Below, piece after piece: positions 49,627 to 58,103 of a stretch of DNA of 64,000 nt. Every line of letters begins with the position of its first letter. Within the stretch, counting starts at the first letter, position 1. A program made the translations under genes and the position numbers. Location of the stretch: assembly GCA_029721435.1 (NCBI GenBank), contig CM056577.1, forward strand, positions 28,103,719-28,167,718, given 5' to 3'. Under the pieces are notes generated by a model. It worked only from the letters and a program-made list of their open reading frames with translations. It ran no database searches and had not been told where the DNA came from. The stretch comes from Gymnothorax reevesii. Its lineage: Eukaryota > Chordata > Actinopteri > Anguilliformes > Muraenidae.

Positions 49627-49628
49627 TA

Positions 49629-49638
49629 CACTCTAAAA
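49629..49638 (+). repeat. Left terminal inverted repeat of the CACTA-like element
   Basis: CACTCTAAAA, preceded by the TA duplication. Match to the right end stops after 10 bp; subterminal short repeats continue for about 120 bp. Confidence 0.75.
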
Positions 49639-49799
49639 GGTAATACCAATGCTCACTTGAAGTACATTTGTGTTCTTTACTTAAGTCTCACTATCCTGTT
49701 GTGTCAACTCTTGTAATGTGAGTAATGTACTCGTTTTGCCTGAAAGAAGTATTATACTGAGTTTGGGGGTGTGAACAGGACTTGAAACTTTTTGTTCAT

Positions 49800-49904
49800 G
49801 GAGCGACCGTCTCTGCACAGCGGTGCACATGCGCAAGAGCAATACTGGTCGGGAATTTTCTAGAAGTGGCTGCTGGAAGGAGCAGAACGTCTCTCGGTCT
49901 CAAG
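49800..49904 (+). promoter_or_regulatory. Candidate promoter-proximal noncoding first exon
   Basis: A short GC-richer stretch (GGAGCGACCGTCTCTGCACA, then TGCACATGCGCAAG resembling an NRF-1 word at about 49824-49837) ends in CTCAAG followed by GTAATT at 49905, a good splice donor. No ATG-led ORF of note precedes it. It is well placed to be the 5' exon joined to the acceptors at 52343 and/or 55061. The transcription start is not visible and no clear TATA box is present. Confidence 0.45.
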
Positions 49905-52343
49905 GTAATTTATTCGACTTTAACAAATATTTCTATGGGTTAGGTATGAATTTATTGTTCCCAATTGAATAGAACAGGCCCGATTTTCGTCTCGGGTTAT
50001 AAGGATAACTCTGAATAATGTTCAGACTTGCGTTTGTGTTTCACCACGAGTGGCTAACAGTTAACGTTAGCCAAGGTATTTAGCTAATAATAATTAAAAG
50101 CGCAATGCCGTTTAAGAGCTCTGCTTACATTCATTAGTTTATATTTTAAATGCGAATTTCACGCTTCAAGCTGTTAAAGGTAGCATTCATTGTGGGCAAG
50201 CACATGTGCAAACATAACATACAAGCGATCTTTATTTTTTTTCAGTGGCGTGGAAGCAAGAATTCATTGCACTAAGTGCCGAGGCGTGCCACCGGAGTAT
50301 AGGAAAAAGATAGTCCTCGTGTCAGTGTATGTGCGCGCTCGCACACTCGGGGGAAAAAAGCGACCACACAAGATAACGACGGGATAAGGAGGCAGGCTGA
50401 GGGAGGATTGATTAGCTACAGGTCTGAGGTGAGCATCAAAACGCAGTACTCACCAACTGGGGCAACACTCGCATAGCAATAGTGCAGCATGTTGCGTATT
50501 GCATAATTATTTCGTTGTTTGTTCATGGCTTGAAAAAAGTTTGCAGGTCTTGCAGAGGTTCCAAGTCTGCCAATTGGGGGGGAGAGAATCTCCCATTTTT
50601 TTTTTTACATAAATTACACACAATCTCTGGACCTCACGTTTGCAATCAGTATCTCCCGCTTTCTTGGCGTATACTCGAAAATTCTACGTTTATTAAAATT
50701 GATCTGCATGTGCAATTAATTTACGCCGAAATGCCACCCACGCACATTTTTTAAACTCTAATCTTGTAATCCTTACGCTGCATTTCGCTAGGTGGGGCTC
50801 AAAGACCGGATGCAGATTTCTCGAATCAAACCAAAACTCTAAAGTCGACAGCATGGACTGTGTAAAAATATTGACGCAGCAATCGGGTCTGAAAACTGAG
50901 GCCAATGCAGAAATCTCTAAAATTTGCTTCCTACTTAATGGCCAGCAGATGGCGACATCGGTGGTTGCTAAAAGAAGTTCAATTCTGTTGAAGTCTCTGA
51001 GAAAATTACCCGACTTTCCCACCTGATTTATTTTTTAAATAATTATTTTCCACATTACTTTATTGTATCTATCACAAGTTTCAAGTCTCCTTGAATATCT
51101 CATGATGTCCATTTTTATAAATTATGGTCCCAAATAGACTAAAAGAACACCATAATATTCTGTCTCTGGTCGTCAGTCTAAACTGAAGTAAAGGTATTTA
51201 TTGGTATTTTAAGGTATTTATTTAAACCTACTGATTAAAGCTATTTTTTGTTCTGAATTTAAGCCATGCTCAGAATTCTTGTGACTCAGGTGCTTTTTTT
51301 CTACTATTAGTCGGTATTTTTGTTGATACATACATTGTATAAGAACCATCAATAAAATGATATTTAGTGTTGCTAATTTTTGTTCACCTTGTTGAGAGAG
51401 GTTTGGGATTTTGAACTTGAGATTTGGTGCTAGGAGAGTCCAAGAATGCACCTGAATTCGTCTTGGGGGATCCAGCTCCTTGGGCCCTTCAGCGGGCCCC
51501 AGACCCCTGGCCATAAAGGGTGCTCGCTTCGCGAGCTGCATACACATCTGCCATCAGTCCCCTTCTGTCAGGAGATCTTCCCCCATTCCCCGATTTCAAC
51601 TTGGAATCTCTGATCTTTGCTAGCAGACAACTGCTTTCGCGCTTTTGTCATGAGGCCTCAGTCTATCTGAGTTACTTCTTTCTTCGCTAAAACGGGCATT
51701 CACGATCCTGGATAATCGTGACTATCATCTGTCTCTGGTAACACTGTGGTTTTGAAGAAATGCAAACTGTTAACTGCGAGGTTACAAGCCACATAACGCT
51801 AATCAGAGACTTGAACAAATTCGATTAAACGGTTAGGGGACATTAGCCTACCTATGGGGAAATTGGTCCGCTACATTGATGATAAAAATTGATATTGAAC
51901 AAAGTGAAATGTGGACAGCAGTATCTTGAATACGTTAATAGCTTTTGAAAAACTAGAAATGATTTCTGAGTAAGACTTGAAAATGTGTGCTCTGTACAGT
52001 AAGTTTATAACATGAGTGAGTACTTTTTGGTTGTTTTTATCCCAGATAATAAACAAAGCATTCTGAGAACGTATTGCACATATAGATCATATTACTGGTC
52101 CTTACTGTCACATTGTAAACTCACGAAAACTTTTGTCACTATCTGATAGCATCATATATGAAGTTAACCAATGTAAACAGCAATGATTTCATGACTCTAT
52201 ATACGTTATATTGCCCATTCAACATTTACTTCATAATGATGCGTTGAAGCAAAAGCATTATCTATTGCCTGTCTTAAGTAGTTGTTGTTAAATATGTGTT
52301 TAAAGCCATTTTTGTGACTTTTTTTTTAAAAATCTTTTTGCAG
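49905..52343 (+). other. Candidate first intron of the CACTA-like element
   Basis: 2.4 kb between the donor at 49905 (GTAATT) and the acceptor TTTTTGCAG ending at 52343. It contains only short domainless ORFs (for example 51218-51547 and 50693-51022 on the minus strand). I see no other repeat in it. Confidence 0.45.
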
Positions 52344-52367
52344 ATTCAAGACATACGACGGACTCTA

Positions 52368-55040
52368 ATGCGGTGGGCGTGTAAGTTTTGCAGCTTCACG
52401 TGTGAAAAGCGAGGGCATCTCCTTAAGCATTATAGGCTGAAACATGGTGGCTACACAAGAACATCACCATTACCATGTCTTCACAAAGAGTGCCTCTGTT
52501 CATTTAAGTCCTTTAATGCACTTAAGATACATCTATCAAGAGCACACTCCCTGATTGATGATAATCCTATTCATGTCAGGAAAAATGTATTCCAGTGTCA
52601 AATTTGTGATTTCAAAGAGCCATGTGCAGAAAATGAGTTTTTTTCACATTTACGCACACATATCCGGATGCGCCAGAAAGTCCAGTGTCCCTACCAGGAT
52701 TGTGATTTTGAAACCAGCGTCTACACAACATTTAATGCCCATAAGAGTAGGAACCACTGTGGCAGGCAGACACTTAACCAGTTGCAGTTCAAGCAAGGGA
52801 TTTTGACACATACAGTAACTTCAAATGAAGTTGTTGAAACTGAAATTGAAGGTGACATTCAAGATGAAACAGATTTTCAAGAAGAGGATTTGATGGCAGA
52901 TAACATTGATAACTTGGAGTGGCAGCTTGAGCATAATTTGGCGGCCCTTTTCCTCAGAATGAGAACTATACTCCATATATCTGAAAGTGCTGTGCAAGAT
53001 ATAATACAGCAAATACGGCAGATAATGGACTTATCAAAACCTTTGCTATTATCTGCTATTCAGAGAATACTCCTGAAGTACTATCCTGATGTGGATTTGT
53101 CCATAGTAAGAGAAATGGTAAGTGCAATCTCAGATAGCAATGTCATTCTGAGGCACACTCAGGTAGGAGGTTCCCTATCCACATCCTGCAGAAGAGCATC
53201 ATACTCAGTCAAAGAATTTAAAATTGTGGAACCTGTTGAGTTTGTAACGGGTGAAGACAAGCAGTCAGTTGTCTATATACCTGTTCTTAAAATGCTCCAA
53301 GCTTTGCTAAACAAAGCAGAAATCTTGGACAGGGCTCTCGAAGTTAGCAGTGGTGATGTGCAAGAATACTGCTCTTTCAGAGATGGTTCATTGTTCAAAG
53401 AAAATACTTTACTGGTGGAAGAAAATTTTAACATTGCCCTGGGACTCTACATAGATGACTTTGAGGTTGCAAATCCACTTGGAACCTCTAAAAAGAAGCA
53501 CAAAATATGTGCAGTGTATTGGGTTCTCTTAAATCTTGCACCAAAATTTCGCTCGTCTTTGAACTCCATACAGTTGGCCCTCCTTTGTAAGGCAAACTCT
53601 GTCAAAGCATGCGGGTACTCCGAAGTCCTGCGACCACTTCTTCAGGATCTAGTGCTTCTTGAAAAGCATGGTGTGTATGTGGAGAAACTGGGATCAAGTG
53701 TCAAAGGAACCATTTTGTATGTTGCAGCAGATAATTTGGCTGCTCATTCATTGGCCGGATTCCATGAAAGTTTCATCTCTAATAAGATTTGCCGCTTTTG
53801 CATGGCGACAAGCCAGGGAATACAAGACAACGAAGTTAGATCTGGTAACTTCTGCTTGAGAACAAAACAAACACATGATCAGCAGGTGAAGGAAGTTCAG
53901 CAGGATGCGCAAATGGCAAAGCAGTACGGTGTGAAAAGCAGCTGTCCTGTAAGTGATCATTTGGAGCACTTTCATGTTATTGGCGGTTTTCCCCCTGACA
54001 TCCTCCATGATTTGCTTGAAGGTATCATTCCTTCAGAGCTGTGCATTTGCATTCAGGATTTGATAAAAAGGAAATTCCTCACACTTGAGATCCTCAATAG
54101 CGCCATAAAGGAATTTCCCTACACACATTCAGACAAGACAAACCAGCCTCAAACAATTTCTCAAACATTTCAGGCCAGAGGGACCATTGGAGGAAATGGT
54201 CATGAAAATTGGAGCCTGATCAGACTGCTTCCCCTGATGATTGGCCATTATGTTCCTGAGGGAGATGAAACATGGGAAGTTTTACTGTGCCTGAAAGATG
54301 TGGTTGAGTTGGCCATGTCTCCGAGGTTTACTGAGGAGTCACTCCATTATTTGGATTTCAAGGTGTCCGAGCATAGGGCTTTGCTTCAAAAGGCATTTCC
54401 TCACTACAGACTCCGCCCAAAACACCATTACATAGAGCATTACCCCCATCTGATTCAAGTATATGGGCCACTTGTTGATGTTTGGACAATGAGGTTTGAG
54501 GGAAAGCACAAATTCTTCAAGCGAGTCATTCGTGAAGCCCACAATTTCAGAAATGTTGCTCTGACTTTAGCTGATAGACATCAGAAGATGATCGCTTACC
54601 ACTTAGATTCTGCTTCATTTTTTAAACCAGCATTTGAACTGAATAAAGTGAAGAGTGTCATGATATCTTCTCTCCAAGATAGTGTGCAGCAACAATTGTT
54701 GGCAAGATGTGCCCCTCAAAACACAGTCCTTGCAGCAACATCTGTTAATATAGATGGTATTAAGTATGCAAGTGATATGGTGGTGTCTGTTGGTTCATGT
54801 GCCGGCCTTCCAGAGTTCAGGCAGATTCATCAGGTTTTGGTTATAGATACCAATGTTCTGTTCATTTGCAGACAGATGTGTGCATGGTATCATGAACACC
54901 TCAGATCTTATGAAGTCTGCAAAAGTAGCACATGCCTGCTTGTAACGGAGTTACAAGACCTCAATGATATCTTTCCCCTCTCTGCCTACAGAGTGAAAGG
55001 CCAATTGTTTGTTACCCTGAGACGTTATATTTTGTGCTGA
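52368..55040 (+). CDS. C2H2 zinc-finger CACTA (Tnp2-like) transposase
   Basis: An uninterrupted 890-aa protein, by far the longest in the window. I chose the ATG at 52368 because the upstream in-frame ATG (52296) lies before a strong acceptor (TTTTTGCAG, ending 52343). The N-terminus has four C2H2 fingers at about residues 5-26, 36-60, 74-98 and 103-130, likely for binding the element's ends. An acidic linker follows (about 160-185), then a long transposase body. Conserved-looking landmarks are VAADNLAAHSLAGF with CRFC (D455), FPPDILHDLLEG (D544, the CACTA/Tnp2-type DxxHDLLEG signature) and MRFEGKHKFFKRV (E711). Together they give a plausible D-D-E triad. KHHYIEHYPHLI precedes the last. Proteins of this layout are frequent 'uncharacterized' predictions in fish. 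The family assignment is by motif resemblance; catalytic residues are inferred. It ends 21 bp before the next gene's acceptor. Codon use and the absence of any lesion contrast with all other transposons in the window. Confidence 0.85.
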   Translation: MRWACKFCSFTCEKRGHLLKHYRLKHGGYTRTSPLPCLHKECLCSFKSFNALKIHLSRAHSLIDDNPIHVRKNVFQCQICDFKEPCAENEFFSHLRTHIRMRQKVQCPYQDCDFETSVYTTFNAHKSRNHCGRQTLNQLQFKQGILTHTVTSNEVVETEIEGDIQDETDFQEEDLMADNIDNLEWQLEHNLAALFLRMRTILHISESAVQDIIQQIRQIMDLSKPLLLSAIQRILLKYYPDVDLSIVREMVSAISDSNVILRHTQVGGSLSTSCRRASYSVKEFKIVEPVEFVTGEDKQSVVYIPVLKMLQALLNKAEILDRALEVSSGDVQEYCSFRDGSLFKENTLLVEENFNIALGLYIDDFEVANPLGTSKKKHKICAVYWVLLNLAPKFRSSLNSIQLALLCKANSVKACGYSEVLRPLLQDLVLLEKHGVYVEKLGSSVKGTILYVAADNLAAHSLAGFHESFISNKICRFCMATSQGIQDNEVRSGNFCLRTKQTHDQQVKEVQQDAQMAKQYGVKSSCPVSDHLEHFHVIGGFPPDILHDLLEGIIPSELCICIQDLIKRKFLTLEILNSAIKEFPYTHSDKTNQPQTISQTFQARGTIGGNGHENWSLIRLLPLMIGHYVPEGDETWEVLLCLKDVVELAMSPRFTEESLHYLDFKVSEHRALLQKAFPHYRLRPKHHYIEHYPHLIQVYGPLVDVWTMRFEGKHKFFKRVIREAHNFRNVALTLADRHQKMIAYHLDSASFFKPAFELNKVKSVMISSLQDSVQQQLLARCAPQNTVLAATSVNIDGIKYASDMVVSVGSCAGLPEFRQIHQVLVIDTNVLFICRQMCAWYHEHLRSYEVCKSSTCLLVTELQDLNDIFPLSAYRVKGQLFVTLRRYILC

Positions 55041-55041
55041 T

Positions 55042-55061
55042 GTGTCATTTCGTTCTTTCAG
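55042..55061 (+). other. Splice acceptor upstream of the second gene
   Basis: Right after the first gene's TGA (55038-55040) comes a pyrimidine-rich tract ending TTCTTTCAG at 55061, then GACCATGG, a strong Kozak start at 55066. This is best explained as the 3' end of an intron whose 5' donor lies upstream, so gene 2 would be made from an alternatively spliced transcript that skips gene 1. Confidence 0.65.
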
Positions 55062-55065
55062 GACC

Positions 55066-57202
55066 ATGGACCAGTCCTGGCCAGTGAGAGTTGTTGTTGG
55101 TGATAATGACATTCGCAAGGTTACCTTCCAAGAAAGGCCTAATGATTTGGAAGAACTCAGATGTGAGCTGAAAAAACGACTCAGTCTGCAGTATGATTTC
55201 ATGCTTCACTATGAAGACCCAGATTTCAACAATGCTTTTTGCAATGTCACTGACATAACTGAATTGCCCCCAAGACCAACACTGAAGATAGTCTCCCTGG
55301 AAAATGTATTTTTAACATTGTCTTCAGTTACTGCTTCATCTTCAGCATGTGAAATGTCAACAACTAGTTCATCTGATACCGAAATACTGCCACACAATCA
55401 GGAGACCTCACGTAACCCATGGCCTTCTACATTTGAGGTGCCATATTTTTCAGTGGATATTGAATATAGACTTCGACAGGGAAACCTTATTTACATGAGA
55501 GATGGCACACGCATGTCAGTGTCACGAGACATGAAGCATGATATTTTGCAGAAGCTGGCTGAGGAGATGTACAAGTTCTTAGCTTACCCACAAGATGAAC
55601 ACTTCACCACTGTTGCTGAGGCACTGATTGCTAAGCACCCTTGCCTTGCTGAGCCAGGGTCAACCAGGGGCTGCTATGGATGGAAGAATAGCTTAAAATT
55701 TAAAATGGGTAATCTCCGCGCCAAACTTCGCAGATGTGGAATGGCAGACGTGTCAGTCAACAGTAACAAGAGGACAGTGCAGAACCCAGATGGAGAGCCA
55801 CCGGGAAAAAAACTGAAGAGACCCAGGAGAAGTGAAACAAACTTCCTGCCAAACTTTCCGCAGGGCCAGGATGCTTCAACACTTGAAAGCTGTAGACAGG
55901 TACTTGAAAATGAGATGAAGAAAAGGTCCCCAAATGCAGTGTATGTGAATCGGCTGATGAGCCAGACCTTCTCATTGAGGCGCAAAGAAGTAGTGGAAGA
56001 CCAGCCTTCTGTGAAGCACATGTTAGAACGCTGGCCAGCACTTTTCAAAAAACAACAGGTAAGCAAAGAGGTAGATAATAAAAACCAAATTTATGTCTGC
56101 CTCGTGCAGTTTGTCTTCCAAAATTTCCTCATCTCTTTACTTTTGTACAAAATGTTGTGCTTGTATTCTGTGTTGTCCTAAAAGGTTTATGCAGAGTTCA
56201 CCAGAGTGGCTAGTAGAGATCTTGAGCAAGACTTCTTTGAGTCCTTGGATCGCCATACCCCACGTTTCCTTGAGATCTTCAAATCTAAAAAGGGGATTGT
56301 TGGCCAGACACTTTCTGAGATCCTTGCCCAGGTTGAAACAAGGGTAAGCATTTATTCTCATTAATTTTTTCTTAGGGCAGGAAATTGTGCAAATTGTTCT
56401 TTTAGACAATATTCAGTTGCGCGTGCACATGCATACACAATTTCTCCACTTCAAATTCTCTTTTCTAATGATCTTTATGCTTGGCTAAGCCAACCAGAGT
56501 TTAGCCTCACATTTAATGTACAAACATGACCGTGATATCAACCTTCTAATCTAGTTGACCAAGACTGCAAGTATAAAGACTGCTTCTAAACATGTTGATC
56601 TATTCTATCTGACTTACTTTGGAAAAAAATGTGATGCTTTTCTTTTAGGAATTGCTTTTCCTTAGTTTTACTCTTTTTACCCACTTGTAGACCAATGACG
56701 TCATTGCCATTAGGACTGCTGTCCTGCGATGTCTCCCTGTTTTCTTTGGGGATGATGGAAGTGACTTCTACAAAGTCTGTTTTGTAAGTATTGTATAATT
56801 TGGTATGTTGGATGCTTTGCACTAGGAAGCAATGATTTTCACTTTTTTTTTTTTTACCATTCTTTATATCCACAGAACACTGATGCTACTGCAGACTTTA
56901 CGCAGGTCCCTGTTGGGGTATTGACTGTTATACCTGAAGTCAGTCAGCTGCCAGGTCCAAATGCTCTACACCTGGAACCATGCAACATTGGTATTATTCT
57001 GGAAGGTACTGTCGTCATGGATGACATTGAAAGCCATGCTCATGCTATTTGCCTTATATTTGGACTAATGTATGCCCTTCATCTCGATTATCCAAAAACA
57101 TTAAAAAACTTCTTTGACTTCATTCAGAGGGTGATGCTCAATCTGGGGGTGGGTAACCTGAGGCCAAAACTTCAGAGCTTGAAAAACACACTTTTACAGT
57201 AG
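55066..57202 (+). CDS. PB1-like domain, SAMD3-like protein (second CACTA-element gene)
   Basis: Four coding exons with GT-AG junctions, all phase 0: 55066-56058, 56185-56343, 56691-56783 and 56876-57202, giving 331+53+31+108 = 523 residues and a TAG stop. Residues about 6-80 (VRVVVGDNDIRKVTF ... MLHYEDPDF ... ELPPRPTLKIVS) look like a PB1/ubiquitin-fold domain with an acidic OPCA-like loop, a protein-protein interaction module. A central conserved block has YGWKNSLKFKMGNLRAKLRR. A basic stretch PPGKKLKRPRR near residues 245-255 could be a nuclear signal. The C-terminal region includes FGLMYALHLDYPKTLKNFF. The whole resembles the 'sterile alpha motif domain-containing 3-like' family, hugely expanded in fish; the SAM domain itself is not evident here. 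By position it may play the TnpA-like accessory role of CACTA elements (end binding or oligomerisation), which is inference. Confidence 0.8.
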
Positions 57203-57751
57203 GTGGGTTTACTGCAGGCAGCTGCAGATAACAGAAAAAGATGCTGAAGCATAGACACTTGATTCAACTGTTACACGCTGAATGTTTTCAATCAGTGACC
57301 ACTGCCTAGTTCTGATGGTTAGTCAATCACAAACGGCTGATTTTTGGGCACGTTATATATCAGTTTGTATGGTTTTTCAATTTATGGGGCAAACAAAATC
57401 AAAACTGGCTTGTGAAGTTGGATGGTTCCAGGTGTTGGGCATTTGACCATTGGAGTTAATCATGTCAAATGTACATTCCAAACGAAGACTTGACTGGTGG
57501 TTCTGTTTTGTTTACGTTTTATGTAAATGTGACTAGTTTTTACTAATTAATAGTAAGATGTTTGCAGCTATTGTCTTGCTGTTTCAGTGCGAAAGCAGTT
57601 GGCTGAAGCTTGATTGATAAAACTGCTATTGAGTGCTGTTGAGATTTTTTTTTATCCTTATTTCATGACTGAAAAGAGCTGATTTGTGTTGATTTTACAA
57701 TTTAATTTGTAAATGGCCTTTGTTAAGATGCTGAGAATGATATTTTACTAA

Positions 57752-57757
57752 AATAAA
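57752..57757 (+). terminator. Polyadenylation signal AATAAA
   Basis: AATAAATAAATAATCC, 550 bp after the second gene's stop and just before the right subterminal repeats. It is the likely shared 3' end for both transcripts. Confidence 0.6.
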
Positions 57758-57810
57758 TAAATAATCCTGTGAACTTGTCATTCTTGGTTGTGCTTACTTT
57801 ATTCATTTGA

Positions 57811-58101
57811 GGCAATCGGTTTCCTAGATTCTACTGAGTAAATTTTACTGTTCACATAAATCAGACAAACTTGGTTTTGGTAAGTTGAACAACTTGCCAT
57901 TTTTAAGTTGGAACAACTTCAGAGAACTGAGTTGAAATGACTTCACTTAACTAAGTAAATACTGAACCATTAAAGTACACTGAACAATTAGATGTGAAGT
58001 AAACAAAACTTAAGACTATTGGTTATATTTACTTGCCTTTTTCAAGGCAACCGGTTTCCTAGATTTTTTTAAGTAAGGTCAACTTGTCAGATTTTAGAGT
58101 G
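57811..58101 (+). repeat. Right subterminal repeats and terminal inverted repeat
   Basis: Two direct copies of GGCAA(T/C)CGGTTTCCTAGATT (57811-57830 and 58046-58065), each followed by AGTAA words, and several AAGTTGAACAACTT-like inverted motifs between them. The last ten bases TTTTAGAGTG are the inverted terminal repeat. Such arrays are binding sites for transposon proteins in CACTA elements. Confidence 0.7.
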
Positions 58102-58103
58102 TA

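Follow-up and report, generated by a model that had tools for sequence, protein, structure and literature searches.

A two-gene element in Gymnothorax reevesii

Two genes lie on the same strand between short inverted repeats at positions 49629-58101 of a 64,000-nt stretch of the Gymnothorax reevesii genome (the window, to whose positions the element coordinates refer). An initial annotation of this stretch had interpreted the interval as a CACTA/EnSpm-like transposon whose second gene encodes a SAMD3-like protein. The features assigned to it are listed below, with residue conservation scored in 59 sequences and evidence from further copies of the element on contigs 1 and 2 of the assembly (TSD, target-site duplication).

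49627-49628, no strand: left TSD copy, TA (window sequence and contig-2 copy; empty-site test on the contig-2 copy)
49629-49638, + strand: left terminal inverted repeat CACTCTAAAA (window sequence and contig-2 copy; third copy, on contig 1, with the same left boundary and a different outer flank)
49639-49904, + strand: putative leader region ending in donor-like TCAAG/GTAAT (presumed splicing)
52340-52343, + strand: acceptor-like GCAG just upstream of gene 1 (by eye, putative)
52368-55040, + strand: gene 1, 890-aa transposase, single open frame (reading frame, relatives, genome copies)
52380-52760, + strand: four C2H2-like zinc-finger motifs, gene 1 aa 5-131 (loose-pattern motif scan; Cys/His conserved in relatives)
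52911-54617, + strand: predicted RAG1-like catalytic core, gene 1 aa 182-750
53454-53456, + strand: D363, proposed first catalytic Asp (invariant)
53730-53732, + strand: D455, proposed second catalytic Asp (invariant)
53790-53801, + strand: C(2)C motif, C475 and C478 (invariant)
54423-54440, + strand: H(3-4)H motif, H686/H687 and H691 (H687 invariant, H686 and H691 at least 90%)
54498-54500, + strand: E711, proposed catalytic Glu (invariant)
54627-55013, + strand: predicted BAH-like domain, gene 1 aa 754-882
55060-55061, + strand: acceptor-like AG (TTCTTTCAG) just upstream of gene 2 (by eye, putative)
55066-56058, + strand: gene 2 exon 1, coding for the PB1-like domain and the first part of the helical region (joined frame, relatives)
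56185-56343, + strand: gene 2 exon 2 (joined frame, relatives)
56691-56783, + strand: gene 2 exon 3 (joined frame, relatives, contig-2 copy)
56876-57202, + strand: gene 2 exon 4 including the stop codon (joined frame, relatives, contig-2 copy)
58092-58101, - strand: right terminal inverted repeat TTTTAGAGTG (window sequence and contig-2 copy)
58102-58103, no strand: right TSD copy, TA (window sequence and contig-2 copy)

The annotated lesion-free gene of 890 codons was confirmed by the unbroken frame of gene 1, and the 523 codons claimed for gene 2 could likewise be read without stops once its four exons were joined, their borders having been picked by hand with the backing of full-length relatives. 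Sequence search of solved structures matched only zinc-finger and BCL11A entries, and no relatives of gene 1 in prokaryote genomes, or of either gene in viral contigs, were confirmed. The predicted chromatin-reader fold of the BAH type (54627-55013) would end a RAG1-like transposase, which recalls, in principle, the histone-reading PHD finger carried by RAG2. The gene 2 product is predicted to start with a PB1-like domain. Its relatives are often annotated as 'sterile alpha motif domain-containing protein 3-like', and Pfam detected no sterile alpha motif (SAM) domain in gene 2, in six gene-2 relatives or in one fused model scanned. No fold, be it enzymatic or DNA-binding, was recognised in the helical part, which was not folded or searched alone. 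A 29-nt inverted repeat (56958-56986 and 57417-57445, 90% complementary, 430 nt apart) connects the last coding exon of gene 2 with the region behind it and could reflect a transcript hairpin or a duplicated exon piece.

The 10-bp inverted termini and the TA duplication proposed for the window copy were found as described, with CACTCTAAAA and TTTTAGAGTG forming a perfect pair and TA outside each end. The window contains 14 inverted pairs of 10 bp that have TA on their outer sides and are spaced 1-15 kb (the element's pair included); these ends are therefore no more than expected by chance, and they were rejected as stand-alone proof of a transposon. Genome-wide enrichment of CACTCTAAAA was also discarded, since a 10-mer count proved uninformative (5,981 sites versus 11,342 for the reversed pattern), and eight genomic places from this site list showed no likeness to the element. 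The subterminal repeats reported initially were not confirmed: k-mer sharing between the two 320-bp ends was not above that of random host pairs, of which 144 of 467 (6-mers), 47 of 468 (7-mers) and 76 of 472 (8-mers) matched it. The boundaries are proven by other copies, which have the same ones.

Copies, empty sites and pairing of the genes

As checks, the initial annotation had named common ends with 2-3-bp duplications among copies, empty sites, constant pairing of both genes and dN/dS, and most of the checks it named were borne out. A search of the assembly (2,173,976,663 bases) with gene 1 led to at least 52 match rows (51 of 744 candidates scored), two of them being pieces of one place. 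The nearest copy, on contig 2 (L039), is 99.788% identical over 8,477 columns to window positions 49627-58103, with 13 mismatches and one 5-bp gap; gene 1 is open in this twin as in the window copy (L010), and the flanks outside TA differ. The contig-2 copy interrupts a repeat, presumably a long interspersed nuclear element to judge by its protein, and the frame of this repeat is open with one TA kept and not with two or none. The joined flanks aligned uninterrupted, at 95-97%, with every one of the 40 relatives scored out of 192 candidates, some of them with gaps of 1-3 bases, and a single TA was present in the seven related empty sites read. As the unbroken relatives have a single TA, this proves that the contig-2 copy was inserted with a 2-bp duplication.

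At least 24 match rows with 43% protein identity and one common score represent a recently amplified subfamily. Comparison of 16 of its copies gave an identical gene-1 coding sequence in 12, and a mean pairwise difference of 0.48 of 2,646 bases (maximum 2). Two amplified copies were read end to end in pieces. Both have CACTCTAAAA at the start, TTTTAGAGTG at the finish and TA outside each end; the contig-1 copy of the two measures 11,523 bp. When the ends of ten further copies were read, all ten had the same ends; the flanking dinucleotides are identical in nine (four TA, two TG, and one each of CA, CT and AA) and are TA versus CA in the tenth, and scoring by script revealed no duplication longer than 2 bp in these ten. 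Together with the window and contig-2 copies, an exact 2-bp TSD was observed in 13 of 14 complete copies. The lineage has exact boundaries, a 2-bp duplication, two genes in fixed order and several subfamilies with an intact gene 1 in this one genome, one of them very recently amplified. A (TA)n microsatellite lies between gene 1 and gene 2 of one recently amplified copy (L040:7671-7750); the alignment of L040 with L041 breaks there, and its length may explain their size difference.

The 5' 300 bases of the element gave 11 matches, namely the window, contig-2 and contig-1 copies, one diverged copy on contig 8, one on contig 13, and six pieces on contig 2. The latter (L053-L058) are diverged 5' ends within about 233 kb (36.19-36.42 Mb), three of which begin at the terminal repeat and have outer flanks that closely resemble each other; because of these flanks the cluster is probably a segmental duplication rather than a series of separate insertions.

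Gene 2 was found within 1.5 kb downstream of gene 1 and on the same strand in 26 of 30 loci extracted from these 52 rows, counting that of the window. In the other four the sole match was the gene-1 tail of a fused model, which was not counted as gene 2. In two of these (L013 and L016) gene 2 begins just past the 1.5-kb stretch, leading to 28 of 30 loci, or 28 of the 28 read far enough; the remaining two (L015 and L017) belong to the same subfamily as L013 and L016. Fused models account for 15 of the 240 protein relatives listed (120 of 188 for gene 1 and 120 of 447 for gene 2), and gene 1 precedes gene 2 in all of them. They span 12 fish species: Coilia grayii (2), Cirrhinus molitorella, C. 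mrigala, Paramormyrops kingsleyae, Hoplias malabaricus, Astyanax mexicanus, Oryzias latipes, Labeo rohita, Thunnus maccoyii (3, two being isoforms of one gene), T. albacares, Seriola lalandi and Pholidichthys leucotaenia. In Mugilogobius chulae, relatives of gene 1 and gene 2 (P0100 and P0128) carry consecutive locus tags. The Logan contigs of P0056 and P0207 are both 6,772 long, a hint of pairing that may be due to chance.

Ten pairs of gene 1 from different subfamilies showed proportions of synonymous differences (pS) of 0.68-0.86 and of amino-acid-changing differences (pN) of 0.23-0.40, with pN/pS of 0.31-0.49, ratios that are rough as pS is near saturation. The synonymous rate dS was computable in one of these pairs (L019/L020), with dN/dS of 0.156. 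Within subfamilies dN/dS was 0.37 for L014/L018, 0.18 for L013 with L016, and 0.55 for L013 with L017 and with L015; comparing the degenerate copy on contig 1 with that of the window gave 0.62. These values, 0.18-0.62 overall, are mostly based on a small number of changes. Between the window copy and its contig-2 twin, gene 1 differs at four positions, all amino-acid-changing and none silent, which are too few to weigh and give no support to purifying selection. From the excess of synonymous over amino-acid-changing differences per site between subfamilies, the transposase is probably under purifying selection between bursts.

Relation to known transposons and proposed mechanism

According to PMC12730594, elements of the CMCT clade mostly have 5'-CA..TG-3' ends and TSDs of 2-5 bp. 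The element agrees with this in its ends (CACTCTAAAA...TTTTAGAGTG) and in its 2-bp TSD, in having counterparts of the catalytic residues and motifs that this source defines (here D363, D455, C475, C478, H687 and E711, as proposed), and in the RAG1/Transib-like catalytic fold predicted for the gene 1 core. With CACTA/EnSpm, as defined there, it shares CACT...AGTG ends and a DDE transposase with C(2)C and H(3-4)H motifs; it differs in its TSD (2 bp versus 3 bp in EnSpm) and in the zinc-finger motifs and predicted BAH-like tail of its transposase. As the TSD is 2 bp of varying sequence (CA, CT, AA and TG besides TA), which is neither the TA only of ESTA nor the 3 bp of EnSpm proper, the element was filed in the wider CMCT clade. 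The initial assignment was upheld with this refinement. Fungal Plavaka elements have 2- or 3-bp TSDs and TGT..ACA or CATCA..TGATG ends (PMC12730594), in contrast to the CACT..AGTG observed here; when three gene-1 relatives were scanned, two gave weak Pfam Plavaka matches (E 1.5e-5 and 3.9e-5, both short of the curated cut-off), and 6 of the 120 gene-1 relatives listed carry a precomputed Plavaka match. CMC-EnSpm elements make up 4.69% of the zebrafish genome (PMC4746887), and a term search in a paper on fish transposons (PMC8869645) found no mention of EnSpm or SAMD.

No link between SAMD3 and a transposon was found in the literature searched, as judged by titles and the openings of abstracts, outside of which lay Repbase, bioRxiv preprints and most subscription journals, and nothing was found on PB1 together with EnSpm and transposase. 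A SAMD3-like second gene is not known from Spm-type elements; a prior Repbase record of the pairing is possible. Transib and RAG produce 5-bp TSDs; the element differs from Transib, RAG1 and ProtoRAG in this respect (2 bp) and in its ends, and no likeness of the gene 2 product to RAG2 appeared.

In maize Spm, which has a two-gene layout, TnpA and TnpD are made by alternative splicing. A similar arrangement is suggested here by a donor-like site at 49904/49905, around which query bases 249-300 are 88-90% alike in two distant copies, and by pyrimidine-rich tracts ending in AG directly before both start codons in the window. Visual inspection showed comparable acceptors ahead of gene 1 in six of the eight loci considered and ahead of gene 2 in five of eight places, counting the window's. 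Because of the paired acceptors and the donor-like site, one promoter would, by analogy to Spm, probably drive a common leader that is alternatively spliced to the acceptor of gene 1 or gene 2. The gene 1 transposase would bind the element ends, probably via its zinc fingers, cut with the D-D-E site of the RAG1-like core, and join the element into target cuts staggered by 2 bp, while the BAH-like tail may direct it towards histones that carry marks. The gene 2 protein, with its PB1-like domain and helical region, would be an obligate partner, most likely aiding assembly of the transposase-DNA complex.

Alternative readings and the link to SAMD3

Judged from sequence, 49629-58101 is very probably a DNA transposon of the cut-and-paste kind and of the CACTA-like (CMCT) type, complete and apparently autonomous, and the initial interpretation of a SAMD3-like protein as its second gene is supported by the copies, the empty sites and the pairing. 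Several points weigh against this, in addition to the near-saturated or sparse gene-1 changes described above. The third copy of the element's own subfamily, on contig 1 (about 96-98% alike), is broken: it has three stops, its CACTCTAAAA boundary is shared but is preceded by TT, and in the approximately 3.5 kb read there nothing matches past window position 55597, its 3' part being missing. One of the 14 complete copies has unequal flanking bases (TA/CA). No clear acceptor was visible by eye before gene 1 in L013 and L017 or before gene 2 in L014, L018 and L021, and the conserved pairing is the single argument for the partner role of gene 2.

That both are ordinary host genes, one zinc-finger and one SAMD3-like, between chance short inverted repeats would fit the labels that annotators gave to many gene-2 relatives, but the several copies that have exactly the same boundaries, the 2-bp duplications, the empty sites and the near-identical copies on many contigs make this negligibly probable; from the empty sites and copies it is refuted in the G. 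reevesii genome. An assignment to EnSpm proper or ESTA, instead of a separate CACTA-like lineage, is possible though somewhat doubtful, as the CACT...AGTG ends and a Pfam Transposase_21 match (E 0.001, below its cut-off) are opposed by duplications of 2 bp that include CA, CT, AA and TG. For gene 2, capture from a host SAMD3-type gene as a passenger dispensable for transposition appears unlikely: amniote SAMD3 is homologous to it, and other transposon lineages do carry unrelated extra genes, such as TET/JBP dioxygenases in fungi (PMC12730594), but gene 2 follows gene 1 in every locus read far enough, in subfamilies with 43-59% protein identity to the window's, and fused models occur across the 12 fish species. 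We consider it slightly less improbable, and still rather unlikely, that the gene 2 protein is a regulator or silencing antagonist outside the transposition complex. This would agree with the helical part, in which no enzymatic or DNA-binding fold was recognised (by searches not made on this part alone), and with the BAH-like and PB1-like domains, which are typical of chromatin and signalling proteins.

Many of the 'SAMD3-like' genes of fish thus probably belong to mobile DNA and are not regular genes of the host. A large set of 'SAMD3-like' and 'uncharacterized' predictions would have to be assigned to transposons, with consequences for gene counts and for work on expression. An intact two-gene vertebrate CACTA-like transposon with precise ends, two candidate proteins and a recently amplified sister subfamily makes the requirement for the partner directly testable. 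A testable origin is also raised for the human gene SAMD3. Amniote SAMD3 is homologous to gene 2 from about residue 116 onward, and turtle SAMD3 (P0359) aligned with it over 360 columns (hhalign probability 99.2%, E 1.6e-19). SAMD3 differs in having a SAM domain at its start (nearly all of 120 listed), where gene 2 has the predicted PB1-like domain; the helical region is homologous. That SAMD3 in amniotes, including humans, is the domesticated second gene of this transposon lineage, with the PB1-like domain replaced by SAM, is a reading to which we assign a little under an even chance. If true, the lineage would be a second RAG1-fold transposon that left a vertebrate gene, here that of the partner, beside RAG1/RAG2, RAG1 being the enzyme behind antibody genes. 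When 7 SAMD3 rows and 27 from fish were placed in one tree, a single branch of great length (2.77 + 2.05 changes per column) connected the two groups, and because of its length the tree gives no direction between domestication and capture.
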